Below are positions 2,739-57,546 of a DNA stretch of 58,520 bases, piece by piece. The stretch lies in NCBI GenBank assembly GCA_002839355.1, contig PGXW01000014.1, forward strand, positions 1 through 58,520, in the 5' to 3' direction. The stretch is from Spirochaetae bacterium HGW-Spirochaetae-2 (GTDB taxonomy: Bacteria; Spirochaetota; Spirochaetia; Sphaerochaetales; Sphaerochaetaceae). Each line of letters opens with the position of its first letter. Positions within the stretch are counted from its first letter, which is position 1. The position numbers and the translations under genes are program-made. Under the pieces are notes generated by a model, which had not been told where the DNA came from, made no database searches, and was given only the letters and a program-made list of their open reading frames with translations.

Positions 2739-2742
2739 AGGG

Positions 2743-4846: not shown

Positions 4847-4898
4847 TTGACAAGCGTTCGAAAAATAAATAACATTTGTTATATAACACATGTTATAT
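4847..4898 (+). promoter_or_regulatory. Promoter with overlapping palindromic TetR-type operator
   Basis: TTGACA (4847-4852), exactly 17 bases and TAACAT (4870-4875) form a strong promoter. AACA-TT-TGTT (4871-4880) overlaps the -10 box. ATATAACA-CA-TGTTATAT (4881-4898) is a perfect eight-base inverted repeat directly downstream. The TetR gene starts 17 bases later with an AAGGAGGT ribosome binding site. The layout predicts autorepression of the TetR-hydrolase operon. Confidence 0.7.
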
Positions 4899-4914
4899 AT
4901 AGAAGGAGGTTGGT

Positions 4915-5493
4915 ATGCCACCAAGAGTGAACGTCACAAGCAATCAAATCCTTGAAGCAGCTTTCGCCCTCACTCGGGAACAAGGGTACGAATCGGTGAA
5001 CGCTCGAAGCATTGCCAAAAGGATCGGGTGCTCCACCCAGCCGGTATTCAGCCGGTTTACCTCGATGGATGAGCTGAAACATGCCTTCCACACATACCTC
5101 GGCGAATTTTTCAACGGATATGTCATGAAAAGGATGGTAGGGGAGAATCCCTTCCGCCAAGTGGGACTTGCCTACATTGCGTTCGCAAAAGAGGAACCAA
5201 ATCTGTTCAGGGTCCTGTTCATGTCCGACATCCGGAAACTCGACGGTTTTACCGGTTTTTTTGGCGATGCCGACAACGTGGAAGTCGCCGCGCAGCTTTC
5301 GAAGGGCTTGGGCATATCCTTTGAAGGGGCCAAGCGGCTCTATATGAAATCTTGGATTTTCGCGCATGGGATAGCTTCCATGATCGCAACGAATAGCATC
5401 CAGCTCTCCGATGGGGAAATCCTGGAGATGCTTGGATCTTCTTATCGCGCATTCCTAGTACAGGAAACAATGGAGAAAGGGGTAGATGGATGA
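4915..5493 (+). CDS. TetR/AcrR family transcriptional regulator (192 aa)
   Basis: The N-terminal TetR DNA-binding domain covers residues about 8-55 (ILEAAFALTREQGYESVNARSIAKRIGCS, then QPVFSRFTSMDELK in place of the common PxxYxHFxxKxxL). The remaining 135 residues are an all-helical ligand-binding domain of TetR_C type. The start is certain from the AAGGAGG six bases upstream. It overlaps the downstream alpha/beta hydrolase by four bases (ATGA). The palindromes in its own promoter make it the likely autorepressor of this two-gene operon. The inducer may be the substrate or product of the hydrolase, perhaps a lipid or ester; this is inference. Confidence 0.92.
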   Translation: MPPRVNVTSNQILEAAFALTREQGYESVNARSIAKRIGCSTQPVFSRFTSMDELKHAFHTYLGEFFNGYVMKRMVGENPFRQVGLAYIAFAKEEPNLFRVLFMSDIRKLDGFTGFFGDADNVEVAAQLSKGLGISFEGAKRLYMKSWIFAHGIASMIATNSIQLSDGEILEMLGSSYRAFLVQETMEKGVDG

Positions 5494-6791: not shown

Positions 6792-6808
6792 GAAGTGGGA
6801 AAGTTCGG

Positions 6809-7537
6809 TTAGAGGGCGCTTTGGGGTACAACCAGGCGCTCCACACCGTCAATGACGATATACAGGCCAAGGCCGAGCAGACTGAGCAGCACGATTCCCG
6901 AATACATGCCGATGTAGTAGGCCATGATCCAGCTGTTCATGATGTAATATCCCAATCCATAGGTGGCGGCATAGTTTTCGCTGATAAAGAGCACCGACAA
7001 TGAGATGCCCACTGTTATGCGAAGCGAAGAGAATATCCGGGGCAAAATTGCCGGCCACAGGATGTCCTTGAGGATTTGCCGTGGTTTCAAATGGTAGGCG
7101 CGTGCAAGTTCCAGAAATTGTAGCGGTATCTCCTTCACACCATCCCGAATCGTTACCGCCGCTGGAAAGAAGATGATGACGGCGATAAGGATGATTTTGG
7201 AAAGGTCCCCGATTCCAAAGAGCACCATGAAGATGGGAAGGAAAGCGATCTTGGGTAGCGGATACAGCAAGTAGAGCACCGGAGAGACCACTTGGTCCAA
7301 AGCCTTGAACCGGCCCGCCACCATACCGGTCGGAATGGCGAAGAAGAGTGCGAGCATCATGCCCATGATAATCCTGTACAGCGAGAATAGCAGGTGCAGA
7401 TACGTTTTACCCTCTCCCAGGCTCTTGACCAGATGGACAAGGACAAGGTGCGGAAATGGAACTATGGGTGATGCCAATACCCAGGCGAGGGCATACCAGA
7501 GGACCAGCACAATCGAAGTACCTCGTAGATATTTCAT
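6809..7537 (-). CDS. ABC importer permease, SsuC/ThiX-like (242 aa)
   Basis: A typical BPD_transp_1 permease with about six transmembrane helices. The cytoplasmic EAA-type coupling loop is FLELARAYHLKPRQILKDI near residues 138-160. It belongs to the nitrate/sulfonate/taurine and pyrimidine-precursor importer group, judged by its size and by its partner NMT1/SsuA-type binding protein. It is the last gene of a three-gene minus-strand operon and overlaps the ATPase by four bases. Only 17 bases separate it from the convergent hydrolase gene, with no clear terminator. Confidence 0.93.
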   Translation of the reverse strand: MKYLRGTSIVLVLWYALAWVLASPIVPFPHLVLVHLVKSLGEGKTYLHLLFSLYRIIMGMMLALFFAIPTGMVAGRFKALDQVVSPVLYLLYPLPKIAFLPIFMVLFGIGDLSKIILIAVIIFFPAAVTIRDGVKEIPLQFLELARAYHLKPRQILKDILWPAILPRIFSSLRITVGISLSVLFISENYAATYGLGYYIMNSWIMAYYIGMYSGIVLLSLLGLGLYIVIDGVERLVVPQSAL

Positions 7538-8229
7538 GCCGGACCTCCAAGTTGGGCCCTGAGCACCTTTTCCAATGCGAAGAATTCATTCCGACTGCGC
7601 AAGTCCCCGGCTTTATGGTACGGATTCTCCGTTTCGAATCGTATCCCGTCCGATTCCATGACCAGAATCCTGGAACCCATGAATATCGCCTCCTGGATGC
7701 TGTGGGTGACCATGACCATGGTGATGCCTTTGGTAACCACGAATTCCTTGATCTCTTGTTGCAGCAGTTCCCGATTCTGTTCATCGAGTGCGGCCAGCGG
7801 TTCGTCCAGCAACAGCAACCGCGGATTCCTGACGAGGCTTCGGACCAGCGCGACCCGTTGCTTCTCTCCGCCACTGAGCTGTTGCGGATATTTCTTCATG
7901 TGTCCGTACAGTCCCATACGATCCAATAGCATTTCAGCTTGCCCCACTGATTCCTTGGTAAGTCCAAGCAATACATTGCCGAGGACCGTTTTCCAGGGGA
8001 GCAACCGATCCTGTTGGAACATGATGCTGCAGGCCTCGGCTCCACCGGTTAGCGATACCGTCCCCTTGGATAATGGCAGGAGACCGGCAATGGCGTAGAG
8101 CAGGCTGGTCTTGCCGCAGCCGCTTTTTCCGATGATGCTGACCATCTCGCCCGGTTTTACTGCCAGGGTGAAATTGTCGAACGCCTTATGCTTCGGATAA
8201 TCGAGGCGGGCATGGGAAATGGTGAGCAT
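7534..8229 (-). CDS. ABC importer ATP-binding protein, SsuB/TauB-like (231 aa)
   Basis: A complete nucleotide-binding domain: Walker A GKSGCGKTSL, Q-loop in MFQQDRLLPW, signature LSGGEKQRVAL, Walker B LLLLDEPLAALD, and the H-loop in VTHSIQEA. The start is the ATG at 8229, which overlaps the stop of the substrate-binding gene by one base (TGATG). The reading frame is open further upstream, but that part lies inside the neighbouring gene. It energises the adjacent permease. Substrate specificity resides in the binding protein and is not obvious. Confidence 0.93.
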   Translation of the reverse strand: MLTISHARLDYPKHKAFDNFTLAVKPGEMVSIIGKSGCGKTSLLYAIAGLLPLSKGTVSLTGGAEACSIMFQQDRLLPWKTVLGNVLLGLTKESVGQAEMLLDRMGLYGHMKKYPQQLSGGEKQRVALVRSLVRNPRLLLLDEPLAALDEQNRELLQQEIKEFVVTKGITMVMVTHSIQEAIFMGSRILVMESDGIRFETENPYHKAGDLRSRNEFFALEKVLRAQLGGPA

Positions 8230-9185
8230 CACTCGTGCCGCACAAACCGTGGATCGAGCATCGCAGCCGGTTCGAGGTCGTATTCCCTTCCGGTGATTGC
8301 TGCTGTCCATACAATGATCTCCCTGGTGAATCCATCGCTTGGCAACCGTGGAGCATGATAATCGGGAAGATGCATCATATCGCGTACCGCCGGAGGGAGA
8401 TTCGGAATCACTGCCATAAGTACATCGCGCGCCAGCTCTGGATTCTGTTGCAGATCGGTTACCGCACGACCATAGGCGATGTGGAATGTACGGATTGCCG
8501 ATTCTTTCTCGGCTATCGCCGATTTTGTGAAGGCAATGATATTCAGGCTCTCGCTGGGGATTCCCTCGAATACGATCTTCTCCAATCCGCGCAAGGCGCC
8601 GATCGATGCGAACGGTTCGGGGAATATACCGGTGTCCAATTGCCCGGATACGACCGCCTCCAGCCGAGCCGGTATTTCATTGATATATACCTTCTCGATC
8701 TCGTGCTTCGGGGCAAGGTACTGTTCCAACAGGTAGTTGGTGACACTGATTTCCATGGTTCCCGCCGAAACCGACTTCTTTCCGTCCAACGGCCCTTTTG
8801 CAAGCAATGGGAAATCCCCGTCGGTGGAGAGGGTTCCTGTCAGTGCGAAATCGCTCTTTGTTTGAGTTATCAGCGCGACCAGATCGGTCATTGCTCCGTC
8901 GACCTGTCCGGTCTGCAAAGCGGTTTGCCTGTTCTGTCCGTTGGTGAAGAGGATCAATTCGACATCGACTCCCTCTTGTTCAAAGTAGCCTTGCTGCAAG
9001 GCATGGTAGAATGGTGCCGAATCGACCGCACTCATCATCCCTACCTTCAATTTGGGCAATGGTTCGTTACGTATGGATTCCCCGGTGACAGTATGTGGAA
9101 CGTCGTCGGTACTTGTTTTGGTACACCCGGTGAAAGCCAGGATTGAAGAAAGAATGCAGAGTGCTATGATGATCCGGTTGCGCAT
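8229..9185 (-). CDS. ABC substrate-binding lipoprotein, NMT1/SsuA family (318 aa)
   Basis: The protein begins with a lipoprotein signal peptide ending LAFTGC, giving Cys20 as the lipidated residue. The periplasmic-binding fold follows: LKVGMMSAVDSAPFYHALQQGYFEQEGVDVELI is a hallmark of NMT1/SsuA/ThiY-like receptors, and GQVDGAMTDLVALI closes the first lobe. The ligand could be an aliphatic sulfonate, a thiamine precursor or another small organic molecule; no riboswitch is visible in the 70 bases upstream to decide. It leads a binding protein-ATPase-permease operon with overlapping genes. A GAGG ribosome binding site precedes the ATG. Confidence 0.9.
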   Translation of the reverse strand: MRNRIIIALCILSSILAFTGCTKTSTDDVPHTVTGESIRNEPLPKLKVGMMSAVDSAPFYHALQQGYFEQEGVDVELILFTNGQNRQTALQTGQVDGAMTDLVALITQTKSDFALTGTLSTDGDFPLLAKGPLDGKKSVSAGTMEISVTNYLLEQYLAPKHEIEKVYINEIPARLEAVVSGQLDTGIFPEPFASIGALRGLEKIVFEGIPSESLNIIAFTKSAIAEKESAIRTFHIAYGRAVTDLQQNPELARDVLMAVIPNLPPAVRDMMHLPDYHAPRLPSDGFTREIIVWTAAITGREYDLEPAAMLDPRFVRHE

Positions 9186-9255
9186 AGGGAACCTCGTACG
9201 TAAGAGTTGGCCTACTGTATCACGACTACGTGTTTTTCGACAACAACACCGCTAT

Positions 9256-11745
9256 TCAATCGTTGCCTAGGACCAGTTGGGTCAGCAGTGTCGTCAGCTC
9301 GGGGTCGTACTTGGAGCCAGCTTCCATGGAAATTTTTCCGAGGGCTTCCCGGTCGGACAATCCCAGTCCGTTCGGTTCTGCGGTTGTCATGAGAGAATAA
9401 CTGTCGGCCAGCGCGAGAATGCGTCCCTGAAGGGGAATGGCAGGTCCTTTCAATCCACTGGGATATCCGGTTCCGTCCCACCGTTCATGGTGTGCAAGGA
9501 CGAATTCCGCAATCGCTCCATATTGCGAGGTTGCGCTCAAGATGTTGTAACCGACTTCCGGGTGGCGAAGCACCGTGCTCCCCTCGAGCTCATCGACGAG
9601 GCTTTCGGTTGCCAAAAATTCGGAGCCCAAAGCGACCTTGCCGATATCGTGCATGACCCCGGCCAATTGCATCTCATCCACTTCATCATCCCCCAACCCC
9701 GCATGTTCGGCGATCATGCGGCAGAGCCTTCCCACCCGTTCACTATGGACTTGCTCCTCCGGATTTTGGCTGAACAGTGATGAAAGCAATTGGTCGATGA
9801 TCCGTTTTCTGATTTGCGGTCGCTCGGCGACTTTTTTCCGGTACATTTCATGCTCGGCTTCCCTGAACAACTCATCCATATTGTTCGAGCGGACCAGTTT
9901 GACCGATTTTCCAAACGAAACCGATACGGGCATGTCCTTCACCCGTGCGGTGGCGATGGAGGCATTTATCCTGTCGATGATCACATTCGCATGCTCTGCA
10001 TCGGTATTGGGCAAGAGGATTACAAATTCATCGCCCCCGATTCGCGCCACGATATCGGTTTCCCTGCATTCCTTGCGAAGAATTTCCGCGACGGTACGCA
10101 GCAAGGTATCACCCGCATCATGGCCGAAGGCATCGTTGGTGAGTTTGAGGTTGTTGACATCGGCAATCACGAGCACCAAAGGACAATAGCGGACATGATT
10201 CAATCGGTGGACTTCCTCTTCGAATGCTCGCCGATTCTTCAGTCCGGTCATCGGGTCGCTGTAACTGAAGTGCAGGATCTGCTGTTGTTTGTTCCGTTTT
10301 TCGGTGCAGTCCCTGAAAACAAGCACCACGCCGTCGACATTCCCCGAAGCGTCGAAGATAGGAGAGGCGATCGCTTCGATTGGAATCGATTCGCCTTGCT
10401 TCGAAACCAACACTTCGGTGGTACCGGCTTCGACCGACTTCTTGGCTTCGATCGAATTCTCCACAATATCCTCTTCACCAAAATTCAGTACTTCGCGATA
10501 GAACTTACCTACCGCATCGGCATACTCCCATCCGGTCAGATTTTGTGCCACACTGTTGATCACATCGATATGTCCGGTACGACCGAGCGCGATGACCCCA
10601 TCGCCAACGGACAACAAGGTTGTTTCCAGACGGGCTTTCTCCAAGGCAAACTGGTTCTGCACCACTTTCGATTGTGTTATGTCGTCGATGATCGCGGCGA
10701 ACAGCAACGGTTCGGGAGAATATGCCGATATCCTCAGGTGCTTGCCAAGTTGTGGTGTATAGCGTTCGACGATCTTCGGTTTGCCCGATTCCACTACGCT
10801 TCTGAACAATTCGATCCACTCGGTCCTGCTGCCGCGAAAGATAGTATCGACCGAATTACCCAGTATGCCCTCAGCAGATTTCTCGATTATTTCCTCAAAC
10901 CGTTTGTTTACGCTGAGGACAATCGCATCGACCATCCGGTGGTCGGTATCTTCCTCGACCCTACACACCAGAAGTCCCTGGTTCATCTGTTCAACCAACT
11001 TGCGGTGGCTGCCTTCACTCTTCTCCAATGCCGCCTGGGCCTGTTTGAATCTGGTAATGTTGGTATGGGTTCCGCTCATGACCAAGGGTTCACCTAAAGC
11101 CGACCATTTGGTTACCTTTCCCCGGTCAAGCACCCACACCCACGTCCCTGTCTTATGGTGCATCCGGAATTCGACTTCATAGAAATCCTGCTTGCCGGCC
11201 AACACTTCCTGCATGCGAGCTTCCGCAACTTTCAGATCATCGGGATGGGTGAGGTTGCGCCACGTATGGATGGAGAAGGGAGACAATTCGTCTAGCGTGT
11301 ACCCCACAATCTCGGCCCAGCGGGCATTGATCTCAGATATGCCGGTAGGGATATCCAATACCCACGTGCCGACATTGGTACCCTCGATGACACTTGACAG
11401 CTTGTCATTGATGGCTCGCAATTCTTCTTCTATATGGTCGTGGGAGTTCTTTTCCTCTTGAGTATGCTTTAGTCCACCGATGGTCATGAGGAAGTTGATG
11501 AGAATCAACACCAATGAACCGGAAATCACCGTGATGCTGCTGGCAAGTGTGTCGGTTTCCAATATCCGGTTGGATTGTTCCAACGTATCGGACGGTAGGT
11601 CGGTGAACAGCCCCAATTCATCCTGCAAGTCGGCCGTGGTCCGATTGATGCTGACCAGACTGATTGCCGCAACAAATATGATTATGCACGAAAAGGCAAT
11701 GAACGATAGGATGAGTCTCTTTTCTGTCGATCGTTCACGATCCAT
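9256..11745 (-). CDS. PAS-PAS-PAS-GGDEF-HD-GYP c-di-GMP signalling protein (829 aa)
   Basis: A membrane sensor with helices near residues 10-32 and 67-88 and a short extracytoplasmic loop. It is followed by three PAS-like domains (about 125-240, 260-370, 380-500), a GGDEF diguanylate cyclase (about 510-665) and an HD-GYP phosphodiesterase (about 670-829). The cyclase motif is intact (RIGGDEFVIL). RETD five residues before it matches the RxxD inhibitory site, so product feedback is likely. The HD half has MHDIGK and HHERWDGTGYP, so both opposing activities look intact. The start is the ATG at 11745 with a GAGGAAG site; a TTG 33 bases upstream is possible. A close relative of the same design lies at 25390-27903. 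Confidence 0.93.
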   Translation of the reverse strand: MDRERSTEKRLILSFIAFSCIIIFVAAISLVSINRTTADLQDELGLFTDLPSDTLEQSNRILETDTLASSITVISGSLVLILINFLMTIGGLKHTQEEKNSHDHIEEELRAINDKLSSVIEGTNVGTWVLDIPTGISEINARWAEIVGYTLDELSPFSIHTWRNLTHPDDLKVAEARMQEVLAGKQDFYEVEFRMHHKTGTWVWVLDRGKVTKWSALGEPLVMSGTHTNITRFKQAQAALEKSEGSHRKLVEQMNQGLLVCRVEEDTDHRMVDAIVLSVNKRFEEIIEKSAEGILGNSVDTIFRGSRTEWIELFRSVVESGKPKIVERYTPQLGKHLRISAYSPEPLLFAAIIDDITQSKVVQNQFALEKARLETTLLSVGDGVIALGRTGHIDVINSVAQNLTGWEYADAVGKFYREVLNFGEEDIVENSIEAKKSVEAGTTEVLVSKQGESIPIEAIASPIFDASGNVDGVVLVFRDCTEKRNKQQQILHFSYSDPMTGLKNRRAFEEEVHRLNHVRYCPLVLVIADVNNLKLTNDAFGHDAGDTLLRTVAEILRKECRETDIVARIGGDEFVILLPNTDAEHANVIIDRINASIATARVKDMPVSVSFGKSVKLVRSNNMDELFREAEHEMYRKKVAERPQIRKRIIDQLLSSLFSQNPEEQVHSERVGRLCRMIAEHAGLGDDEVDEMQLAGVMHDIGKVALGSEFLATESLVDELEGSTVLRHPEVGYNILSATSQYGAIAEFVLAHHERWDGTGYPSGLKGPAIPLQGRILALADSYSLMTTAEPNGLGLSDREALGKISMEAGSKYDPELTTLLTQLVLGND

Positions 11746-11988
11746 TGTGACTTCCTCATTTCCTTGGATAGATTTCAATTTATTTGTTGACCAGTGTAGT
11801 TATACGGCAGGTTGGACAGTTTGGCAATGATGGGACCCGGTTTCGGAAGTAAATAAATAATAACTTCTCATTCTAATTGAAAAATCATACAATTTCAACA
11901 CCTGGCTGAAGTTCCAGTTGTACGTCAAGTTACTTGCCTATCCCCTGTTTCCAGGATTATGCTGTACAGTAGGAGTACATACCAGAGC

Positions 11989-13221
11989 ATGGAAGAAGCA
12001 ACGGTACAAAAACGGAATTTCACTGCATTTCTGATCCATGCCCTGTTCCTGGCATTGACACTCAACTTCATCGATATAAACACCGTGGTCCCGAACATGC
12101 TCGCCGAATCCGGCGGAACCGCCGTCCATATGGGAATTCTGTCGGCGATCATGGTAGGTGGCACCAAATTCATGCAACTGGTCTTCGCCGGCATGATCGT
12201 TCCTTTGCGAAGGAAGAAGCCGGCCTTGCTTGCGGGTATCTACATCCGGGTAGCCGCGTTGCTTGCCCTTGGCCTTTTCTTGGGAAACCTTGGCGGTGAG
12301 GCACTTTGGAAAGTATGGACCATCATCCTGGTGATGACGGTATTTTCGTTCAGTGGAGCGTATGCCAATATCTCCTACACCGATATCATGGGGAAGGTGA
12401 TCCTGCCGGAAAAGCGAAAGAAACTGCTTGTGGTCAAACAGTTGATTTCCAGTGTCGGAGTTATCGTTTCTGCCCTTCTGGTAAAGGTGATCCTCTCCCA
12501 GATATCGTATCCAGCCAACTACAGCCTGCTGTTTTTACTTGCCGGGTTGCTGCTGCTCTTGGGTACCATTGGATTTTGGTTGATAATCGAACCGGTGGCA
12601 CCTGCTCCTGTGCGGACACCGCTTCGTGAAAAGTATCGCGAGTTCTGGAAGGTATTGAAAGATGATCCCAATTTCCGAAAATATCTGTTCCTTATAAATA
12701 CGAGCGGGGTGATCGTTTCAACCCTGCCGTTCCTTCTGCTGTATGGAAGATCCCGGTTTCCCGTCGACGGGGGAATGACAGGAACATTCCTGCTGGTGCA
12801 AATGGTTGGAGCCTTGGGAGCCAATATTGCCTTGACACTGTTTTCCAAAGGACAACGCTACCGTTCCATGATCTATCTGTTTGTCATCGTCAGCGCATTG
12901 ACGCTGTTGGTGGCACTGCTGTTGCCAGCGGCCCCCCGTTGGTACTCGCTGGTGTTCCTTCTCAGCGGCATTTCGTTTACCATCAGCCAAATCGTATCCT
13001 CCGGTGTATTGTTGGAGATTTCCACCAATGAGAATCGGGCGGTCTATACGGGACTTTCCGGTGCCGGTTCGATCATGCAGGTGGTGTATCCCCTGCTCGC
13101 CGGGTATCTGGTGGGTATCATCGGATTCCCTGCGGTATTCATCATGACCAGTGTGTACATAGTGTTGGGGCTGTATACGGCCAGGACAATCCATTGTGAA
13201 CGTCTCGTCGGCGCCAATTGA
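11989..13221 (+). CDS. MFS transporter (410 aa)
   Basis: A twelve-helix major facilitator protein with an N-terminal LFLALTLNFIDINTVVPNMLAESGG start. It has weak similarity by eye to drug/solute:H+ antiporters of the MFS_1 group. I chose the ATG at 11989 (MEEATVQ); an in-frame ATG at 11959 would add ten residues. AGGAG at 11971-11975 is rather far from the chosen start. It is followed nine bases later by the DUF4180 gene and then by an AraC-type regulator, probably in one transcript. The substrate is unknown. Confidence 0.85.
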   Translation: MEEATVQKRNFTAFLIHALFLALTLNFIDINTVVPNMLAESGGTAVHMGILSAIMVGGTKFMQLVFAGMIVPLRRKKPALLAGIYIRVAALLALGLFLGNLGGEALWKVWTIILVMTVFSFSGAYANISYTDIMGKVILPEKRKKLLVVKQLISSVGVIVSALLVKVILSQISYPANYSLLFLLAGLLLLLGTIGFWLIIEPVAPAPVRTPLREKYREFWKVLKDDPNFRKYLFLINTSGVIVSTLPFLLLYGRSRFPVDGGMTGTFLLVQMVGALGANIALTLFSKGQRYRSMIYLFVIVSALTLLVALLLPAAPRWYSLVFLLSGISFTISQIVSSGVLLEISTNENRAVYTGLSGAGSIMQVVYPLLAGYLVGIIGFPAVFIMTSVYIVLGLYTARTIHCERLVGAN

Positions 13222-13230
13222 GGATATACT

Positions 13231-13584
13231 ATGGAAGTTGTCGAAAGGAACGGAAAGACGATTGCCCTTTTCGATACAAGTACCCGAATCGAACAGGCCT
13301 CCGACATGCTGGATCTTATGGCGACCACGTGGTACCAAGGCCACTGCGTAGGCATGGTCATGGAAAAGGACAGCCTTCCAAAGGATTTCTTCACATTATC
13401 CAGTGGTGTTGCCGGTGAGATTTTGCAAAAATTCTCGAACTACCAGTTCAAGATCGCCATCGTCGGCGACTTTTCCTCCTATGGGAGTAAAAGCCTGCAA
13501 TCCTTCATATACGAATGCAACAAAGGCAATTCAGTGGTTTTTGTTCCTACCGTTGAAGAAGGTCTCGATAGACTGACGCGATAG
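13231..13584 (+). CDS. DUF4180 domain protein (117 aa)
   Basis: A small cytoplasmic protein that matches DUF4180 over its full length. The conserved core is FFTLSSGVAGEILQKFSNY followed by FKIAIVGDFSSYGSKSLQSFIYECNKG. The family has no established biochemical role but is often found beside transporters and AraC or MerR-type regulators, as here. The GAGG ribosome binding site overlaps the stop codon of the MFS gene, so translation is likely coupled. Confidence 0.88.
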   Translation: MEVVERNGKTIALFDTSTRIEQASDMLDLMATTWYQGHCVGMVMEKDSLPKDFFTLSSGVAGEILQKFSNYQFKIAIVGDFSSYGSKSLQSFIYECNKGNSVVFVPTVEEGLDRLTR

Positions 13585-13680
13585 CCGATATTGTGGTTTC
13601 CAGGCTCTCCAAATTGTGCATGGTAAGAGAGGATTCGATTCGTACGGTCGTGTATGTTCAGAAGTGCCAGGAGGTAAAAC

Positions 13681-14544
13681 ATGGAATGGATCGCCAGACT
13701 GAATGAAGCTGTCTCCTACATGGAGAACAATCTCGATAAGGAGATCAGTTACGAGCGCGCGGCACGGATCGCTTGTTGTTCGACCTTTCACTTCATACGG
13801 ATGTTCACGTACATCGCCGGAATCCCTTTGTCCGAATATGTTCGGCGCAGACGGCTGACGTTGGCTGCATTCGATATCCAGCGTGGTGACGGAAAGATTG
13901 TCGATATCGCGTTGCGATACGGATACGAATCCCCAACTGCATTTAACCGTGCATTCCATGTGGTCCATGGCATGAGTCCATCGGAAGCGAGAAGAGCCGG
14001 GGTCGTACTCAAGGCGCACCCACGGATGATTTTCAGCATGGCAATCACAGGAGGAGCCGAAATGCAGTATCGAATCGAGAAGAAAGAGAGTTTCACCATC
14101 GTTGGAGTAGGACAACATTTCTCCGTGAAAATGGAAGAATGCTTCGAGGAAGTTCCCAAGTTCTGGCAACGCACGATCCAAGCGGGGACGATTCCCCGGA
14201 TCATGGAATATTTGGATAGGGAACCACAGGGATTGCTTGGTGTCTGTGGAAATATGGAGGGTGATGATTTCGATTATTTCATCGCAGTGGCATCCACCAG
14301 GAAGGCCGGGGACAGCTTTGTCGAGTACAGGATTCCCGCAAGCACGTGGGCGATATTCGAATGCATCGGTCCCATGCCGCACGCCATACAGGACCTGCAG
14401 CGAAGAATAATAACCGAATGGTTGCCAACTTCAGGATATGAATACAGCAATGCACCCGATATTGAGGTGTACTTCGCAGGGGACCAACAGGCGAACGATT
14501 ACCGATGCGAGGTATGGCTTCCGGTTACCAGAAAGTCCGATTAG
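13681..14544 (+). CDS. AraC-type regulator with GyrI-like effector domain (287 aa)
   Basis: The DNA-binding part is at the N-terminus: two helix-turn-helix units in residues about 8-107, with CSTFHFIRMFTYIAGIPLSEYVRRRRL and the AraC signature IALRYGYESPTAFNRAFHVVHGMSPSEARR. Residues about 125-287 form a GyrI-like (SOUL-type) small-molecule-binding domain (YRIEKKESFTIVGVGQHF, then the WAIFECIGPMP core and a C-terminal PDIEVYF). The Rob/SoxS-like architecture suggests a regulator of drug or stress response, plausibly of the MFS/DUF4180 genes upstream. It has an AGGAGGT ribosome binding site. Its last four bases overlap the 3' end of a convergent MFS gene. Confidence 0.93.
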   Translation: MEWIARLNEAVSYMENNLDKEISYERAARIACCSTFHFIRMFTYIAGIPLSEYVRRRRLTLAAFDIQRGDGKIVDIALRYGYESPTAFNRAFHVVHGMSPSEARRAGVVLKAHPRMIFSMAITGGAEMQYRIEKKESFTIVGVGQHFSVKMEECFEEVPKFWQRTIQAGTIPRIMEYLDREPQGLLGVCGNMEGDDFDYFIAVASTRKAGDSFVEYRIPASTWAIFECIGPMPHAIQDLQRRIITEWLPTSGYEYSNAPDIEVYFAGDQQANDYRCEVWLPVTRKSD

Positions 14545-49406: not shown

Positions 49407-51182
49407 ATGAGTTTGAAAGATATCATAGCTCCGTTTTCCGTATGGAAGCGGGTCTTCGAAAAACCCTACACGAACAAGAAGCCGATCGATACCCGTCCGG
49501 GAGCTCCCCGATACCGCGGGTTCCATGTGAATGACCTGGATACCTGCATCGGGTGCGGAACCTGTGAGGAAATTTGCCAGAACGCTGCGATCGACATGGT
49601 CCCGGTACGGGAAACACGTCACGGTGATTCGGGATTGCGTCCGAAAATGGATTATGGCCGGTGCTGTTGGTGCGCCCTCTGTGTCGACATTTGTCCCTCG
49701 GGTTCCTTGGGGATGAGCAACGAATACCTGTGGGTCGACGAGGACCCCGAGGTTTTCCGATTCATTCCGGGACATGACGAGAAATCGTGGAACGACAGCG
49801 AACTCGGATATCGGCGGGCGGAGGGCTACGACTTGCTCGAGGGAAATCGTGTTCCCATGCCGATGCTTTCGGTCGAAGAGAGCCAGAAGAGTTTCGTTGA
49901 GATGGTGCAGGGGTATTCCAAAGAACAGGCGAAAGCCGAAGCGGACCGGTGTATTGCCTGTGGCATCTGTGTGGCGACATGCCCGGCGCATATGCGGGTT
50001 CCCGAATATATCAAGGCCATACGGGACGATGACATGGTCGAAGGCCTGAGGATCGTATACCAGGCCAATCCCTTGCCGGCATCGTGCGGGCGCGTTTGCT
50101 CGCATGCCTGCGAATATGTCTGTGCCATGAACCATAAGGGTGAAGCGATTTCCATCCGATGGCTGAAACGCTATATCGTCGATCAGATCTATCTTGGCGA
50201 CTATGCCAAGATCCTGCACGAACGCGAGCCGGACAACGGAAAGAAGGTTGCGATCATCGGTTCGGGTCCCGGCGGATTGAGCGCCGCCTATTACCTGCGT
50301 CTGCTTGGATATGCGGTGACAATCTACGATGCAAACGAGAAGGCCGGCGGTATGCTCCGGTACGGTATTCCCGAATATCGACTTCCCTACGATCAAGTCG
50401 AGAAGGATATCGAATTCATCGCATCCTTGGGTGTCGAGTTCCGTCAAAATACCCGCATAGGAGTCGATGTCGATTTCCTTGAAGTATATGGACACAACGA
50501 TGCGGTATTCTTTTCCACCGGTCTTTCCGATCCCTTCGGGTTGGAAATTGCCGGTGAGGACCTTCCGGGTGTCGTCTCCGGGCTCGACCTGTTGGCCGAT
50601 GTCACAAATGGCAAGACACCGGATATTGGCTCGTCCGTTGTCGTCGTCGGTGGCGGCAATGTCGCCATGGATGCGGCCCGGACTTCACGTCGCTATGGTG
50701 CTCAGGTGACGATCCTCTACAGACGCCGGGAGGCCGATATGCCCGCCGACAGCGAGGAGATCCATGAAGCGCGTGGAGAGGGATGTGAAATCGTGGTGCA
50801 GGCGATTCCCCTACGCATCGAGAAGGGAGAGCATACACGGTTGAAGCTCTACTGGGGAAAAGCGGAGATGGTGTCGGACGGCCCGGGAAAACGCCCGAGG
50901 CCGGTATTGATCGAGGGTTCGGAGGAGATGATAGCCTGCGATACGGTGATTCCGGCGATTGGACAAGCTGGGGACTTCACCTTCCTCCCACAGGATATCG
51001 CATCGAGGCTCGTTGTTAAACGAGGGCAGGTTGAGGTCGATGAGTTCCATAGGACATCGGTCGACAAGATCTACGCCGGAGGCGATATCGCAAATCCGAA
51101 ACGCGATGCGATCAGTGCGATCGCGAACGGTCATTCGGCGGCGAAGGGAATCGACATATACTTGGGCAATTTCCAGGATTAA
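49407..51182 (+). CDS. MbxN ferredoxin fused to GltD/NfnB-like FAD-NAD(P)H oxidoreductase (591 aa)
   Basis: Residues 1-125 are a NuoI/MbhN-like ferredoxin: CIGCGTCEEIC (Cys47, 50, 53, 57) and CCWCALCVDIC (Cys86, 89, 92, 96) form two [4Fe-4S] sites. Residues 150-260 are a GltD-type N-domain with CIACGICVATC (182-192) and CGRVCSHACEYVC (227-239). Then come an FAD fold (GSGPGG, 285-290) and an NAD(P)H fold (VVVVGGGNVAMDAARTSRRYG with YRRRE near 438-442, favouring NADPH), ending GGDIANPKRDAISAIANG. It lies four bases after mbxL. I infer that it carries electrons between NAD(P)H and the membrane complex or ferredoxin; it is not a glutamate synthase, as no gltB gene is nearby. Confidence 0.9.
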   Translation: MSLKDIIAPFSVWKRVFEKPYTNKKPIDTRPGAPRYRGFHVNDLDTCIGCGTCEEICQNAAIDMVPVRETRHGDSGLRPKMDYGRCCWCALCVDICPSGSLGMSNEYLWVDEDPEVFRFIPGHDEKSWNDSELGYRRAEGYDLLEGNRVPMPMLSVEESQKSFVEMVQGYSKEQAKAEADRCIACGICVATCPAHMRVPEYIKAIRDDDMVEGLRIVYQANPLPASCGRVCSHACEYVCAMNHKGEAISIRWLKRYIVDQIYLGDYAKILHEREPDNGKKVAIIGSGPGGLSAAYYLRLLGYAVTIYDANEKAGGMLRYGIPEYRLPYDQVEKDIEFIASLGVEFRQNTRIGVDVDFLEVYGHNDAVFFSTGLSDPFGLEIAGEDLPGVVSGLDLLADVTNGKTPDIGSSVVVVGGGNVAMDAARTSRRYGAQVTILYRRREADMPADSEEIHEARGEGCEIVVQAIPLRIEKGEHTRLKLYWGKAEMVSDGPGKRPRPVLIEGSEEMIACDTVIPAIGQAGDFTFLPQDIASRLVVKRGQVEVDEFHRTSVDKIYAGGDIANPKRDAISAIANGHSAAKGIDIYLGNFQD

Positions 51183-51246: not shown

Positions 51247-51585
51247 ATGGAAAACGAAACGCATAAGGCCGAGATACTGGCACAAGTAATGGAAAAGTTC
51301 GACAAGAACCAATGCGCATTGGTCGAGAGGATGCTCTCGATCATGTCGAATCCGGTTCGTTTCCACATTCTGTGTGCCCTGGAAAAGGAATCGTTCTCCG
51401 TGTCGGAACTGATGGTCCTGAGCAAAAGCCGTGTGTCCAACGTTTCCCAACAATTGAAGATGATGACCCTCGCCGGGTATATCAGCAAGGAACGGCAAGG
51501 CAAGCAAATCATCTATACGCTCAAGGATGGGCGTATAAGGGAGTTGATCCACAAGCTCGAAGAGTTGTTCGGCGATACACGGTAG
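51247..51585 (+). CDS. ArsR/SmtB-type transcriptional regulator (112 aa)
   Basis: A single winged helix-turn-helix protein: MLSIMSNPVRFHILCALEKESFSVSELMVLSKSRVSNVSQQLKMMTLAGYISKERQGKQIIYTL is the ArsR signature. The recognition helix is SRVSNVSQQLKMM. It has two cysteines, Cys23 and Cys43, but not the CVCxC metal motif of ArsR/CadC, so a thiol or redox switch is conceivable. It starts 64 bases after the flavoprotein gene with a GGGAG site and has no strong promoter of its own. It is probably co-transcribed as the last gene of the MBX-like operon and autoregulates it through the palindrome at 40178-40203. Confidence 0.9.
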   Translation: MENETHKAEILAQVMEKFDKNQCALVERMLSIMSNPVRFHILCALEKESFSVSELMVLSKSRVSNVSQQLKMMTLAGYISKERQGKQIIYTLKDGRIRELIHKLEELFGDTR

Positions 51586-52750: not shown

Positions 52751-52806
52751 TTGACAATAGTGGCGGAACATGGTTAATTGCTAGTAGCAACAATTGCTAT
52801 GTGCAA
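52751..52806 (+). promoter_or_regulatory. Promoter with two tandem MarR-type operators
   Basis: TTGACA (52751-52756) and GTTAAT (52773-52778, 16-base spacing) form a candidate promoter. Two 13-base inverted repeats lie directly after it: TTGCTAGTAGCAA (52778-52790, perfect six-base arms) and TTGCTATGTGCAA (52794-52806, four-base arms). They begin 16 bases apart. The MarR gene starts at 52840. TTGC/GCAA palindromes are common MarR-family sites, so autorepression is expected. Confidence 0.62.
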
Positions 52807-52839
52807 CTAATAGTCCAGGCGGTTGTCCAAGGAAAGGAA

Positions 52840-53235
52840 ATGATTGACGAGATTCTGCAAATCAAGAAACGATGCAATTTCAGCGATGAAATCGGGAAGG
52901 AACATGGCCTCACCCCCAACGAGGTCGAATGCATCTCCGCCATCGCTTCCCACACTACCATCTCCTCCAAGCACCTGTCGTCGATCATGAACCTTTCTCC
53001 CTCCAGGGGCAGCAGGATCGTGAACAAACTCATCGACCGGAATTTCGTCTCGGCATCCCCCGACATCCATGACCGACGGTATCTCTCGCTTTCCCTCACC
53101 AACAAGGGGGAAGGGTGTTATGTCGATATCCAAAGGGAAAAGCAGCTGTGTGCACAGCGTCTGCTCGCTTCGTTGGATGCCGATCAGATACATGCTGTGG
53201 AAAACGGACTCAAAATTCTGTTGCAAGTAATGTAA
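52840..53235 (+). CDS. MarR family transcriptional regulator (131 aa)
   Basis: A winged helix protein of MarR type: LTPNEVECISAIASHTTISSKHLSSIMNLSPSRGSRIVNKLIDRNFVSASPDIHDRRYLSLSLTNKGEG contains the recognition helix (SPSRGSRIVNKLIDRNFV) and the wing with the DxRxxxLxLTxxG signature. It starts at the ATG at 52840 after AAGGAAAGGAA; the frame is open upstream into the divergent gene but has no start signal there. Only 15 bases separate it from the ArsM-like gene, so it heads the RiPP-like cassette. Cysteines near residues 10, 91 and 101 might sense redox state. Confidence 0.9.
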   Translation: MIDEILQIKKRCNFSDEIGKEHGLTPNEVECISAIASHTTISSKHLSSIMNLSPSRGSRIVNKLIDRNFVSASPDIHDRRYLSLSLTNKGEGCYVDIQREKQLCAQRLLASLDADQIHAVENGLKILLQVM

Positions 53236-53250
53236 AGGAGAACCCGTAGT

Positions 53251-53916
53251 ATGGAATCTACTGTCCAACAAGCAATAAATCTGCGCTATTCGGAACTGGC
53301 ACAAACCAGTTGTTGCCTGTCCTGTGGGGGTGCGATCAACCACAGCAAGGCCGTGGCAGGCGAAAGGTGTGTCGATCTCGGAAGCGGAAGGGGCACCGAT
53401 GTGCTTCGCCTCGCCGAATCGGTCGGACCCACCGGATTCGTCTATGGTATCGACATTTCGGACGGAATGCTTGACAAGGCACGCCACCATGCCGCTCAAT
53501 TGGGAGTAGGGAATGTGGCCTTCCTCAAAGCGAACCTGGAGGCACTTCCGATCGAAGACGGAAAAGTCGATCTTGTCATCTCCAACTGCACCATAAACCA
53601 TGCGGATGACAAGCAGAAGGTTTGGAACGAAATCTTTCGAATCCTTGGCAATGGTGGCCGGTTTGTCATAAGCGATATCTATTCCATGACCCAAGTTCCC
53701 GAGGAGCACCGAAACGATCCCGAAGCCGTGGCAGAGTGCTGGGCCGGGTCGGTGACGAGGGACGAATATGTCGATCAGCTCGGAAAGGCTGGATTCACCG
53801 ATGTGCAGATACTTGAAGAGAGCGAACCCTATGCAAAGGGTAAAGTAGAAGTTGTCAGCTGGACAATTCTCGGGACCAAGCGTTCCAAGAAAACATGCAG
53901 CTGCAAAAATAATTAG
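53251..53916 (+). CDS. ArsM-like SAM-dependent methyltransferase (221 aa)
   Basis: A class I methyltransferase with the SAM motif CVDLGSGRGTDVL (residues about 40-52) and the acidic end of strand 2 in YGIDISDGML. The ArsM family features are present: YSELAQTSCC near the N-terminus, the conserved cysteine in LVISNCTINH and a third in AECWAGS. Classical ArsM methylates As(III) bound by these cysteines. Here the neighbours are a small Cys-Cys peptide, a radical SAM maturase and a thioredoxin system, with no ars transport or reductase genes. It may act on arsenic, selenium or thiolates, or on the peptide product. The C-terminal CSCK may bind metal. Confidence 0.88.
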   Translation: MESTVQQAINLRYSELAQTSCCLSCGGAINHSKAVAGERCVDLGSGRGTDVLRLAESVGPTGFVYGIDISDGMLDKARHHAAQLGVGNVAFLKANLEALPIEDGKVDLVISNCTINHADDKQKVWNEIFRILGNGGRFVISDIYSMTQVPEEHRNDPEAVAECWAGSVTRDEYVDQLGKAGFTDVQILEESEPYAKGKVEVVSWTILGTKRSKKTCSCKNN

Positions 53917-53932
53917 TAAGGAGGTACTGCTT

Positions 53933-54028
53933 ATGAAATCTCTCATCAGCAAGAAACCTGTCGCGAAGAAAGCCGTAGCCCAGTGCTGCGCGAAGAATTC
54001 TGTTGTAGTGGCAGGTTGTCACGACTGA
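53933..54028 (+). CDS. Candidate RiPP precursor peptide (31 aa)
   Basis: A 31-codon ORF with an excellent AAGGAGGT site seven bases before the ATG. The N-terminal half is a basic, leader-like segment (MKSLISKKPVAKKAVA). The C-terminal half is a compact core, QCCAKNSVVVAGCHD, with adjacent Cys18-Cys19 and Cys29. It lies directly between the ArsM-like methyltransferase and a SPASM radical SAM enzyme, the normal place for a RiPP precursor. The Cys-Cys core recalls the thio(seleno)oxazole SbtA-type peptides described with radical SAM maturases, but I cannot confirm family membership. A purely structural small protein is the alternative. Confidence 0.72.
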   Translation: MKSLISKKPVAKKAVAQCCAKNSVVVAGCHD

Positions 54029-54042
54029 GAATTCGGATGTTT

Positions 54043-54066
54043 CCGGCTGGGAGCGATCCCAGCCGG
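54043..54066 (+). terminator. Perfect hairpin between precursor and maturase genes
   Basis: CCGGCTGGGA (54043-54052) pairs with TCCCAGCCGG (54057-54066) over ten bases around a GCGA tetraloop, a stable GNRA fold. There is no T-tract, so it is a poor terminator by itself. In RiPP operons such elements stabilise or attenuate the transcript so that precursor exceeds maturase. It starts 14 bases after the peptide stop and ends 24 bases before the radical SAM start. Confidence 0.75.
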
Positions 54067-54090
54067 AGACTCCACTGTTAGAAGAAGGGA

Positions 54091-55416
54091 ATGAACAGCA
54101 TGCAATTGTCCAAGCACAACATCATAGGCCGGTTGAAGGATTCCGACGAATATTTCATCGTGAACCCCCTGAGCCGTCAAGCCGATATCCTTACCGCCAA
54201 GAAGGCCCAGGAATTCTCAGCCCAAGTGTTTTCCGATCCGGCGGAACTGGTCGAGAAGGGGTATCTGGTCGACCCTGAGGAAGAACGCAAGCGGTACAAC
54301 CGCGAATACCTCGATTTCCTGGACAACCGGGATGCCGACGAAGTGCAGATATTCTATGTGCCCACCTATTTCTGCAATTTTTCGTGCACCTACTGTTACC
54401 AGGAAGGGTACGAGCATACGACAGAGATCGAACATACCGAGGTTATCGACGCCTTCTTCGCCTACATCGACCGCGAATTCGCGGGCAGGAAGAAGTATGT
54501 GACGGTGTTCGGAGGTGAACCGCTCCTTTCCGGCTCGGCACCGAAGGCGAATATCGTCTACCTGATCGAGCAGGCGACCAAACGCAACCTGGCGTTGGCC
54601 TTTGTGACGAACGGACACACCTTGAAGCAGTATATCCCGATCCTCAAGAAGGGCTTCATACGGGAAATCCAGGTCACCTTGGATGGACCCCAGGAGATCC
54701 ACGACCGACGGAGGATGCTCAAAGGTGGTGCGGGAACCTTCTCGCAGATAGTCGAGGGAATCGATGCCGCGCTTGCAGAAGGCATGCCGATCAACCTGCG
54801 CTCTGTCGTGGACCGTTCGAACATGCCCTATCTCGGGGAGCTTGCGGACTTTGCGATCGCGCAAGGGTGGACCGCGAACAAGCTCTTCAAGACCCAGCTT
54901 GGCAGGAACTACGAACTGCATGTATGTCAGGCGGAACAGCAGAAGCTCTATGATCGTGCCGGCATGTACGAGGATATCTACAACCTGGTCAGACGACAGC
55001 CTTCGTTCTTGGAATTCCATCGGCCCGCGTTCTCGATTTCCAAGTTCCTCTTCGAGAACGGTGAGCTTCCGAACCCGCTGTTCGATTCCTGTCCCGGCAC
55101 AAAGACCGAATGGGCCTTCGATTTCTCGGGAAGGATCTTCTCCTGCACCGCCACGGTCGGCAAGGAGGGAGAGGCGCTCGGAACCTTCTATCCGCAAGTC
55201 ACCAGGAAGGACGAGATTATCCGCGAGTGGGAACAACGCGATGTCACCACCATCGAGGCCTGTGCGGCTTGCCCGATGCAGCTGGCTTGTGGAGGCGGGT
55301 GCGCCGCGGTAGCCAAGAATGCGACCGGCAAAATCAGCTCCCCCGACTGCCGGCCGGTAGGGGACCTCTTGGGCATGGGGCTTTCGCTTTACTTCCAAAC
55401 TGGTACAGATCACTAG
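54091..55416 (+). CDS. Radical SAM/SPASM peptide maturase (441 aa)
   Basis: The radical SAM core begins near residue 85 and has CNFSCTYC (Cys95, 99, 102), followed by the SAM-binding FGGEPLL. The C-terminal SPASM domain is complete: CPGTKTEWAFDFSGRIFSC, then CAACPMQLACGGGC (Cx2Cx5Cx3C) and a final Cys in SPDC, enough for two auxiliary [4Fe-4S] clusters. The N-terminal 80 residues (HNIIGRLKDSDEYFIVNPLSRQADILT) may serve peptide recognition. SPASM enzymes of this length usually modify ribosomal peptides, for example by thioether or carbon-carbon bonds. GAAGGGA precedes the ATG. The likely substrate is the peptide encoded just upstream. Confidence 0.92.
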   Translation: MNSMQLSKHNIIGRLKDSDEYFIVNPLSRQADILTAKKAQEFSAQVFSDPAELVEKGYLVDPEEERKRYNREYLDFLDNRDADEVQIFYVPTYFCNFSCTYCYQEGYEHTTEIEHTEVIDAFFAYIDREFAGRKKYVTVFGGEPLLSGSAPKANIVYLIEQATKRNLALAFVTNGHTLKQYIPILKKGFIREIQVTLDGPQEIHDRRRMLKGGAGTFSQIVEGIDAALAEGMPINLRSVVDRSNMPYLGELADFAIAQGWTANKLFKTQLGRNYELHVCQAEQQKLYDRAGMYEDIYNLVRRQPSFLEFHRPAFSISKFLFENGELPNPLFDSCPGTKTEWAFDFSGRIFSCTATVGKEGEALGTFYPQVTRKDEIIREWEQRDVTTIEACAACPMQLACGGGCAAVAKNATGKISSPDCRPVGDLLGMGLSLYFQTGTDH

Positions 55417-55467
55417 GTTTTGTAGGGCACATCTGAATGAAATTGCAAATAACAGGAGATACAGAAA

Positions 55468-56748
55468 ATGACAGGACATATCAAAGAAATCAATGCCGAT
55501 GAATATCAGAAGGTAGTATTGGACGCACCGCGTGTGGTAGTGGACTTCTATTCCACCGAGTGTCCACCATGTGAAGCCTTGGCTTCGAAGTACGATGCGT
55601 TGAGCGAAATCTATGGAGAATTCGTTCCATTCATCAAAATCTACCGCCAGGGAAACCGAGATTTGTCCTTGGCCTTGGATGTCACAGGATCCCCCACCGT
55701 CCTTTTCTACAAGGATGGCAAGCTGGTAGGCGACAAACTCACCGGTGGTATCAAGCGTTCCGACCTGATGAAGAATATCGAGGCGTTGCTGACTACCGAT
55801 GAAATTGCCGCGGCGCGCAAGAAGATCGTTCCCTTCGAGACCGAAACCGATGTCGTTATCCTTGGAGGCGGTCCCGCCGGACTTACCGCCGGAATCTATC
55901 TCTCCCAAGCCCACGTGAAGACCATTCTGGTCGATACCGCGCTTCCCGGCGGGTATGTGGCCACAACCCATCAGGTCTCCAACTACCCGGGCTTCATCGA
56001 ACCGCAACAGGGCTTCATGTTGTCCCATTACATGAGCGAGCAGGCCAAGGCCAATGGTGTATCGTTCCGCGCCGCCGTCGACGTGAATTCAGTCGATTTG
56101 GAGACCAAGACCGTCATTGTCGACGGAGTGGAGACCATCAGGGCCAAACGTGTGGTGATCGCCACCGGTTCCCGTCCACGTCCGCTGGGACTTCCCGGCG
56201 AAGACGCCTATCGCGGAAACGGAATATCCTACTGCGCCACGTGCGATGCGAAATACTTTCAGGACAAGGAAGTGGTGGTGATCGGTGGGGGCAACTCCGC
56301 CATAGAGGAGACCCTTTTCATCGCCAAGTTCGCCAAGAAGATCACCATAGTCCACCAGTTCGACCATTTCCAGGCCAACAAGGTCGCCCAGGATGCCTTG
56401 CGCAAACTGCCGAATGTCGAATCGCTGATGGAGCACGAGCCGCGCGAGTTCAAGAAGTACGCGGCCATGGACATGGGTGTTGTCGTGGAGGACCTCAAAT
56501 CGGGCGAGAAGAAGGAGTTGCGCACCAACGGCATCTTCGTGTTCGTCGGATTCCTCCCGAATCTCGAAATGTTCAAGGAAGGATTGGAACTCGACCAGTG
56601 GGGGTACCTCAAGGCCGACCACGACATGGAGACCAATATCAAGGGTGTCTACGCCATTGGCGATGTGAAGACCAAAGCTTACCGCCAAATCACCACTGCG
56701 GTTGCCGATGGTACGATCGCGGCGATCTCCATATCGAAGAGCCTGTAA
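55468..56748 (+). CDS. Thioredoxin-thioredoxin reductase fusion protein (426 aa)
   Basis: Residues 1-110 form a thioredoxin fold with the active site ECPPCE (Cys32, Cys35; CPPC instead of CGPC) and the cis-proline in GSPTVLF. Residues 120-426 form a low-molecular-weight thioredoxin reductase: FAD motif ILGGGPAGLTAG, redox pair CATC (Cys256, Cys259), and C-terminal GVYAIGDVKTKAYRQITTAVADG. The NADPH-binding HRRxxxR motif is replaced by HQFDHFQANK, closer to the AhpF style, so NADH or another donor is likely. Most fusions carry thioredoxin at the C-terminus, so the order is unusual. An AGGAGAT site precedes the ATG. Confidence 0.92.
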   Translation: MTGHIKEINADEYQKVVLDAPRVVVDFYSTECPPCEALASKYDALSEIYGEFVPFIKIYRQGNRDLSLALDVTGSPTVLFYKDGKLVGDKLTGGIKRSDLMKNIEALLTTDEIAAARKKIVPFETETDVVILGGGPAGLTAGIYLSQAHVKTILVDTALPGGYVATTHQVSNYPGFIEPQQGFMLSHYMSEQAKANGVSFRAAVDVNSVDLETKTVIVDGVETIRAKRVVIATGSRPRPLGLPGEDAYRGNGISYCATCDAKYFQDKEVVVIGGGNSAIEETLFIAKFAKKITIVHQFDHFQANKVAQDALRKLPNVESLMEHEPREFKKYAAMDMGVVVEDLKSGEKKELRTNGIFVFVGFLPNLEMFKEGLELDQWGYLKADHDMETNIKGVYAIGDVKTKAYRQITTAVADGTIAAISISKSL

Positions 56749-56751
56749 CCG

Positions 56752-57324
56752 GTGAATTGCTTGTCATGCAAGTCAAAGTCCTGCAGGAAAACCGTTTCCT
56801 GCGGGGCAGAATCCTTCGGCTTGGCCGAAAGCCTCGAAAACTACCACCGTCCTGAAAACCAACAGGTGATCAGAGCCGCGGCAAGACTCGTCGATGGCGG
56901 ACGGGCGGGCACGTTGTCCCGTATCCAAGAAATCGTGGAATTTGCCCGGGACATGGAGTACCGCAACATCGGCATAGCGTATTGTTACGGTATGGAGGAC
57001 ACTGCCCTGGCAGTGCGTGACCTGTTCGCCTCCCAAGGGCTGAAGGCCACCGGCGTCTCGTGTACGGTGGGAGGTTTGCGGCAGGACCAGGTCAACCCCG
57101 ACAGTTCCCTTCCCGGTGTCTCCTGCAGCCCCTTGAACCAGGCTGCGCAGTTGAATGCCCAAAAAGCCGACCTGGCAGTGGTTATCGGCCTGTGCATGGG
57201 ACATGATATCCTGTTCAACCGTGAATTCGACGGTGATATCACCACCTTGGTGGTCAAGGACAGGACCAATGGGCACAATCCCATGCAAGGGATCACCAAG
57301 TCCTCCCCAAAAGCCAGCAGCTGA
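56752..57324 (+). CDS. DUF1847 metal-binding-like protein (190 aa)
   Basis: Matches the DUF1847 family: an N-terminal cysteine cluster (MNCLSCKSKSCRKTVSC) followed by a Rossmann-like domain with RNIGIAYCYGMEDTA, LKATGVSCTVGG and VVIGLCMGHDILF. The cysteines could bind zinc or an Fe-S cluster. Function is unknown; members occur in anaerobes near redox genes. The start is GTG at 56752, three bases after the reductase stop, with no clear ribosome binding site, so coupling is likely. It closes the RiPP-like cassette and could scavenge or transfer a metal or thiol group. Confidence 0.8.
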   Translation: MNCLSCKSKSCRKTVSCGAESFGLAESLENYHRPENQQVIRAAARLVDGGRAGTLSRIQEIVEFARDMEYRNIGIAYCYGMEDTALAVRDLFASQGLKATGVSCTVGGLRQDQVNPDSSLPGVSCSPLNQAAQLNAQKADLAVVIGLCMGHDILFNREFDGDITTLVVKDRTNGHNPMQGITKSSPKASS

Positions 57325-57384: not shown

Positions 57385-57546
57385 ATGGAAAAGGAAATCA
57401 CCATCACCCAATTTGCCAAGGAATTGAAACAACGCCTTCAGGAAGGCAGGACGGTGGATTGTTGCAAGGAAGAATTGCTTAGGTTGGCCGACATGATCAC
57501 CGAGAAGATGGGGTCCGAAAAAATCCGGGTAACCTGGAAAGACTGA
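57385..57546 (+). CDS. Small Cys-Cys protein of unknown function (53 aa)
   Basis: A short ORF with an AGGGAGGAT ribosome binding site four bases before its ATG and normal codon use. It encodes a mostly helical, charged protein: an N-terminal beta-like start (MEKEITITQFAKELKQRL), a central VDCCKEELLRLADMI with adjacent cysteines at 25 and 26, and a C-terminal RVTWKD. I do not recognise the family. The Cys-Cys pair echoes the peptide at 53933 and the TSCC motif of the methyltransferase, so it might be a metallochaperone-like or thiol-active accessory. Its own promoter suggests it may be separate from the cassette. Confidence 0.6.
   Translation: MEKEITITQFAKELKQRLQEGRTVDCCKEELLRLADMITEKMGSEKIRVTWKD

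Follow-up and report, generated by a model that had tools for sequence, protein, structure and literature searches.

The stretch analyzed here (the window, 58,520 nt of contig PGXW01000014.1 from the 3.6-Mb, 86-contig assembly of Spirochaetae bacterium HGW-Spirochaetae-2) carries near its end a run of six genes built around a short, cysteine-containing peptide. Comparison with related loci revealed a peptide core that is nearly constant across phyla, and shows an obligate partnership of four parts: the peptide, a radical S-adenosylmethionine (SAM)/SPASM maturase, an ArsM-like SAM methyltransferase (MT), and a fusion of thioredoxin to thioredoxin reductase (Trx–TrxR). Judged from these sequences, the cassette very probably represents a new SPASM family of ribosomally synthesized and post-translationally modified peptides (RiPPs) in which the MT and Trx–TrxR are obligate. 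We propose, with a probability of about one half, that it constitutes a dedicated RiPP pathway producing an intracellular thiol cofactor or carrier. A preliminary description of the window had placed a MarR regulator, an ArsM-like MT, a Cys-Cys peptide, a SPASM enzyme, Trx–TrxR and a DUF1847 protein close together on one strand; each was verified, and the comparison supports reading the run as a cassette of RiPP type that includes a SPASM maturase and a thioredoxin system of its own.

Conservation of the peptide and its partners

The precursor gene comprises 31 codons, with a GGAGG ribosome site and a TGA stop. Relatives of the maturase were drawn from 393 Spirochaetota genomes and from a species-level genome collection, which gave 80 loci in Spirochaetota, Bacteroidota and one Myxococcota record. 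In every locus with an uninterrupted stretch upstream of the maturase, a small open reading frame (ORF) ends in the core; the single exception, in genome G011, is accounted for below. Over approximately 100 loci from the same three phyla, carried mostly by uncultured anaerobic bacteria, the C-terminal core follows the consensus AQCC[A/S/T]Kx[S/T]xxx[A/S/V]GCHD-stop. The leader usually starts with MKSL or MKSV, and the last 16 residues are nearly constant across phyla. Among 92 distinct DNA versions of the core, nine residues (A, Q, C, C, K, G, C, H and D) are invariant and their codons are not; the core glycine, for example, is encoded by GGT in 44 versions, GGC in 24, GGA in 22 and GGG in 2. 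Fixed residues combined with free synonymous variation indicate purifying selection on the translated product. The stop codon also varies among relatives (TAA, TAG or TGA); because TAA and TAG terminate the relatives' peptides at the same position, selenocysteine at the TGA was ruled out.

Independently of the maturase, the 393 Spirochaetota genomes were searched for the core with a degenerate DNA pattern, and with the reversed pattern as a control. The strict pattern matched in 37 genomes, once in each, and the control in none. The maturase family, counted at an identity of at least 37%, occurs in 38 of the 393 genomes, 36 of which also match the peptide pattern (Fisher 2e-47). Of the two remaining maturase genomes, G011 (L020/L136) holds a core variant, STADGCHD, 2 kb off on the opposite strand, and in G061 the locus is truncated at a contig end; G184, the only genome in which the peptide was matched without a scored maturase, contains a fragment of the maturase where a contig ends. 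Any window contains many short ORFs, but the synonymous variation within a conserved core and the nearly complete co-occurrence already refute the idea that the peptide is a chance ORF in a random gene run, to which we assign virtually no probability. Both tests that the preliminary description had set beforehand came out in favor of its reading: the 92 DNA versions encode one core, and the maturase's relatives carry the peptide gene.

The Trx–TrxR fusion is likewise found in 38 of the 393 genomes, 34 of them common to the maturase set (Fisher 4e-40); in the four maturase genomes without it, the maturase lies on contigs shorter than ~4 kb, in incomplete or fragmented assemblies. Given that the fusion and the maturase lie on separate contigs in G110 and kilobases apart in G011, their association is not mere synteny. 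Pairwise identities of the MT, maturase and Trx–TrxR correlate at 0.84–0.92 across 78 loci. The genome-neighborhood check suggested in the preliminary description was thus upheld for the MT, peptide and Trx–TrxR, which go with the maturase, but not for the other two genes: MarR is present in only ~10 Spirochaetota loci and DUF1847 in ~35, and both are clade-specific accessories. More distant proteins, 24–30% identical to the maturase (L002, L003, L111 and L112; G149, G266 and G318), belong to other radical SAM families and occur without the peptide. Plasmid carriage was likewise rejected, the candidates being merely 27–28% identical proteins on two plasmids.

The enzymes and their nearest relatives

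Comparison shows the catalytic residues of the enzymes to be conserved. In the maturase, M4 is invariant in the alignment, so the later of the two possible starts (Table 1) is the likelier. The CxxxCxxC cluster motif (C95, C99 and C102) is present in 101–102 of 102 sequences, and the full seven-cysteine SPASM pattern, tested as CX9-15GX4C ... CX2CX5CX3C ... C, is invariant in ~100 sequences (C334-x12-G-x4-C352, C391xxC394x5C400x3C404 and C420). A structure model (mean pLDDT 85.7) contains an RRE-like domain at residues ~11–82, three strands followed by helices, which is predicted to be of the leader-binding (RRE) type. The nearest solved fold is CteB (5wgg; Z 28.1, root-mean-square deviation 3.7, 394 residues), and the alignment starts at model residue 7, thus covering this N-terminal domain. 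The conserved precursor gene adjoins the maturase gene. Against NCBIfam, the maturase reaches no curated cut-off (best TIGR04463, 116.6 versus 525), which marks it as a separate subfamily, and we rejected naming it as any NCBIfam SPASM equivalog.

CteB, the thioether-forming maturase of the SCIFF peptide (TIGR03974, ranthipeptide class), shares with our enzyme the combination of RRE, radical SAM and SPASM domains and a small cysteine-containing target. Unlike that system, however, the window's maturase scores only 78 against a TIGR03974 cut-off of 425, and an ArsM-like MT and Trx–TrxR are obligate. The peptides differ as well: SCIFF has six cysteines in forty-five residues, whereas the window peptide has 31 residues and three cysteines at its extreme C terminus. 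The maturases of TIGR04463, CefB (NF038107), PapB (NF047865) and geopeptide (TIGR04280) give the best NCBIfam scores (107–117 bits) and also have cysteine-containing targets, but their cut-offs (525, 600, 340 and 400, respectively) are far away and their peptides are different; we know of no MT and Trx–TrxR partner set for them. By description alone, SbtM of Geobacter lovleyi is alike in kind, a radical SAM enzyme that reportedly acts on the Cys/Sec of a small peptide to yield a thiooxazole. Captophorins and bufferins, copper-binding peptides made by multinuclear iron oxidases (MNIOs) (PMC12668002), and methanobactin resemble the window peptide as small cysteine-containing RiPPs tied to metal stress. 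Captophorins and bufferins do not depend on radical SAM chemistry, however, and no MNIO (DUF692) domain was found in the cassette proteins scanned with Pfam. Neither an MT nor a Trx–TrxR is, to our knowledge, associated with captophorins, bufferins or methanobactin.

The best match of the MT in the PDB is the arsenite methyltransferase 5evj (1.2e-26). ArsM holds As(III) by three cysteines (PMC3877260), and residues C25, C113 and C163 of the MT align with the As(III)-binding C72, C174 and C224 of CmArsM; they are kept in 91/91, 92/92 and 92/92 members. Although alike in fold and in this cysteine trio, the MT is shorter than ArsM/AS3MT, is devoid of the long C-terminal region, and scores 190.3 against a PRK11873 cut-off of 263. 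A separate, classical ArsM is encoded elsewhere in the window's genome (G000, contig 25, 98061–98564, L143), next to an opposite-strand FAD oxidoreductase, and several other genomes also hold a second, classical ArsM; the cassette MT is therefore a distinct paralogue. Many MT proteins end in a short cysteine-rich tail (CSC, CCC or CCCC) that is unaligned between members, for example in the window (53890–53916) and in L039, L040 and L041.

In the Trx–TrxR fusion, the redox cysteines C32/C35 and C256/C259 are conserved in 92/92 members. Its reductase part scores 314 against TRX_reduct (TIGR01292), under the cut-off of 343.45, and the NADPH-type HRRxxxR motif is replaced by HQFDHFQA at residues 296–303. 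The latter resembles AhpF-type NADH enzymes, a sequence feature that hints at NADH as the cofactor. ArsM enzymes use the thioredoxin system as reductant.

Layout, expression signals and accessory genes

The features of the locus are listed in Table 1. The six genes are separated by gaps of 15, 16, 62 (71 with the later maturase start), 51 and 3 nt. The closest named relative is the metagenome-assembled genome 'Spirochaetae bacterium HGW-Spirochaetae-4', with a 97% identical maturase. Upstream of the cassette lie, on the plus strand, a Fer4/glutamate-synthase-like flavoprotein gene (49407–51182) and an ArsR-family regulator gene (51247–51585); the two are kept upstream in the closest relative (L033), and not as a pair in other relatives.

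Table 1. Features of the cassette and its immediate surroundings (positions in the window)
Feature	Position	Strand	Basis
MarR-family regulator, 131 aa	52840..53235	+	Pfam MarR_2 4.9e-10
ArsM-like SAM methyltransferase (MT), 221 aa	53251..53916	+	PRK11873 190 bits; PDB 5evj
Precursor peptide gene, 31 aa, MKSLISKKPVAKKAVAQCCAKNSVVVAGCHD, core AQCCAKxSxxxAGCHD	53933..54028	+	Core in ~100 loci
Hairpin directly 3' of peptide stop	54035..54073	+	14-nt arms 54039-54052 / 54057-54070, 93% complementary
Radical SAM/SPASM peptide maturase (putative)	54091..55416 (likelier start ATG 54100)	+	Cluster and SPASM cysteines, RRE-like domain
Thioredoxin (CPPC)–thioredoxin reductase (CATC) fusion protein, 426 aa	55468..56748	+	Pfam Thioredoxin, Pyr_redox_2
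DUF1847 protein, 190 aa, accessory	56752..57324	+	PF08901 3.4e-34
53-aa small protein, CCKxE and VxW invariant, accessory in Spirochaetota	57385..57546	+	Conserved; missed by the preliminary description

The 14-bp hairpin between the peptide and maturase genes lacks a U tract. Hairpins (z<-2) directly follow the peptide stop in 68/98 loci, versus 22/96 after the MT and 22/106 after the maturase. They are unrelated in sequence, some being terminator-like with T runs and others not. A hairpin after the precursor gene is usual where more precursor than enzyme is required, and in the cassette it probably sets the peptide-to-enzyme ratio. The single promoter postulated in the preliminary description could not be substantiated: a sigma-70 scan gave no plus-strand site, and the count of sites was not above that in shuffled sequences.

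MarR is found upstream of the MT in Spirochaetota loci only. An alignment of 11 sequences (the window's and 10 relatives) contains two invariant cysteines, the first being C12 and the second lying close to the C-terminal helix, which might suit a thiol- or metal-sensing regulator. The DUF1847 gene varies in position among loci; its product has four invariant cysteines (78, 104, 125 and 148) and a GLCxGHD motif in a 34-member alignment. Its predicted structure (pLDDT 91) has the widespread three-layer alpha/beta architecture; the best matches (Foldseek E 4e-3, Z ~8.7) are to unrelated proteins and give no indication of function. In the most distant Spirochaetota clade (L127–L130), a DUF5714 protein takes the place of DUF1847; this protein, distantly related to the double selenoprotein MbdU, which binds metal, stands there beside the MT, peptide, maturase and Trx–TrxR. 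Beginning 60 nt past the DUF1847 gene, the 53-residue CCKxE protein matched no Pfam or PDB family. It adjoins the cassette in 8 loci and occurs in 8/120 Spirochaetota genomes, all eight of them cassette-bearing, three with the gene on another contig.

Proposed role of the product and alternatives

We propose the following model. The short precursor would be made in excess over its enzymes, probably helped by the hairpin, and the maturase would bind its leader via the N-terminal RRE-like domain. Modification of the core would most likely link a cysteine sulfur to a neighboring residue or cyclize a cysteine. Rather than being an antibiotic, the product would stay inside the cell and, as one invariant molecule, serve as a thiol cofactor or carry a thiophilic species, either As(III) or a reactive sulfur species. 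Trx–TrxR, driven by NAD(P)H, would keep the cysteines of the peptide, or of the MT, reduced, and the substrate of the MT would be the element or thiol offered by the peptide.

Invariance across phyla, one copy per genome, the lack of an exporter, and a thiol reductase of its own driven by NAD(P)H are more in keeping with a cofactor or carrier than with a weapon or signal, and we give this role somewhat less than even odds. A redox, metal or metalloid function inside the cell, as put forward in the preliminary description, is plausible. The retained As(III) site of the MT, together with sulfur and metalloid neighbors, points to some thiophilic species as the client. Recurrent neighbors handle thiols, sulfur or metalloids (rhodanese, YgaP-TM, CoADR-Rhd, SQR-like, Trx and DsrE_2; ArsP, Acr3 and ArsC). 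In Paludibacter-type Bacteroidota, the cassette is continued by genes encoding a YgaP-type membrane segment, a rhodanese, a CoA-disulfide-reductase–rhodanese (CoADR-Rhd), a thioredoxin and an SQR-like flavoprotein. DsrE_2 is found in two Spirochaetota loci: in L130 its gene immediately precedes that of the MT, and in L132 it lies next to the cassette. The cassette of L136 (G011, 500–13730), with its peptide gene on the strand opposite to the MT and maturase, lies in an arsenic island with ArsP, CcdA/DsbD-like, Acr3, ArsC and ArsR genes; L040 is flanked by Acr3, ArsC, ArsR and ArsM, and in L138 an ArsP_1 permease gene adjoins the MT. More speculatively, the product could be a ribosomally encoded, modified thiol cofactor of anaerobes, a peptide counterpart of glutathione or mycofactocin that has a reductase of its own. 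The ArsM-type MT would use it in carrying or methylating a thiophilic element, which might yield a metalloid-bearing peptide; we hold this version only tentatively.

Several points weigh against the proposal. Arsenic genes flank just three of ~100 loci, and the sulfur-gene neighbors come mostly from one Bacteroidota clade. With a separate classical ArsM in the window's genome, arsenic need not be the substrate of the cassette MT. The genomes share ancestry, so the Fisher p-values above are overstated, although the pattern nonetheless spans many families. Invariance by itself would equally fit a signaling peptide, and the product is known here from its genes alone.

Three alternatives appear unlikely in similar degree. 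One is metalloid detoxification, in which the peptide would chelate As(III) (or Sb, Te or Se) and feed the MT as an arsenite methyltransferase, with Trx–TrxR as reductant. The invariant As(III)-binding trio (PMC3877260) and the three arsenic-associated loci would fit, but their rarity and the second, classical ArsM in the window's and several other genomes do not, and plain detoxification would not need an invariant modified peptide. Alternatively, the peptide may carry persulfide or polysulfide for rhodanese, DsrE-type and CoA-disulfide-reductase partners. This improbable role would explain the repeated sulfur genes of the Paludibacter-type loci and DsrE_2 in L130 and L132; many Spirochaetota loci lack such genes, however, and the MT would have no clear part in it. 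It is also conceivable, if doubtful, that the MT is a second maturase whose cysteine trio binds the peptide rather than a metalloid, the product being both methylated and crosslinked. The MT indeed stays by the peptide gene where the maturase lies 1.4–2.4 kb off (L043 and L060), yet its closest solved relatives are arsenite methyltransferases and all As(III) ligands are kept. Far less probable is a secreted antimicrobial or signaling RiPP. Many characterized SPASM peptides have such functions and the maturase fold is shared, but the core is not diversified, there is one copy per genome, and Trx–TrxR is obligate. Moreover, genes for an ABC exporter, a leader peptidase or immunity do not recur near the loci; the preliminary description had remarked on the absence of the first two in the cassette, and neither belongs to the core set across loci.

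What does the cassette add to the known repertoire of RiPPs? SPASM RiPPs as such are already known. The peptide family, the maturase subfamily, the obligate ArsM-like and Trx–TrxR partners and the CCKxE protein are absent from the libraries and open-access literature searched, where we found no description of the gene set, of the core letters, or of DUF1847 or DUF5714. The cassette thus adds a putative SPASM RiPP family with a non-diversifying product, linked to a thiol-reducing system of its own and to a homologue of arsenite methyltransferases; its core and partners are delimited sharply enough to be tested directly in a heterologous host. Should the product be a cofactor or metalloid carrier, the short list of metabolic ribosomal peptides would grow, and radical SAM peptide chemistry would be joined to the metalloid or sulfur biology of anoxic habitats.

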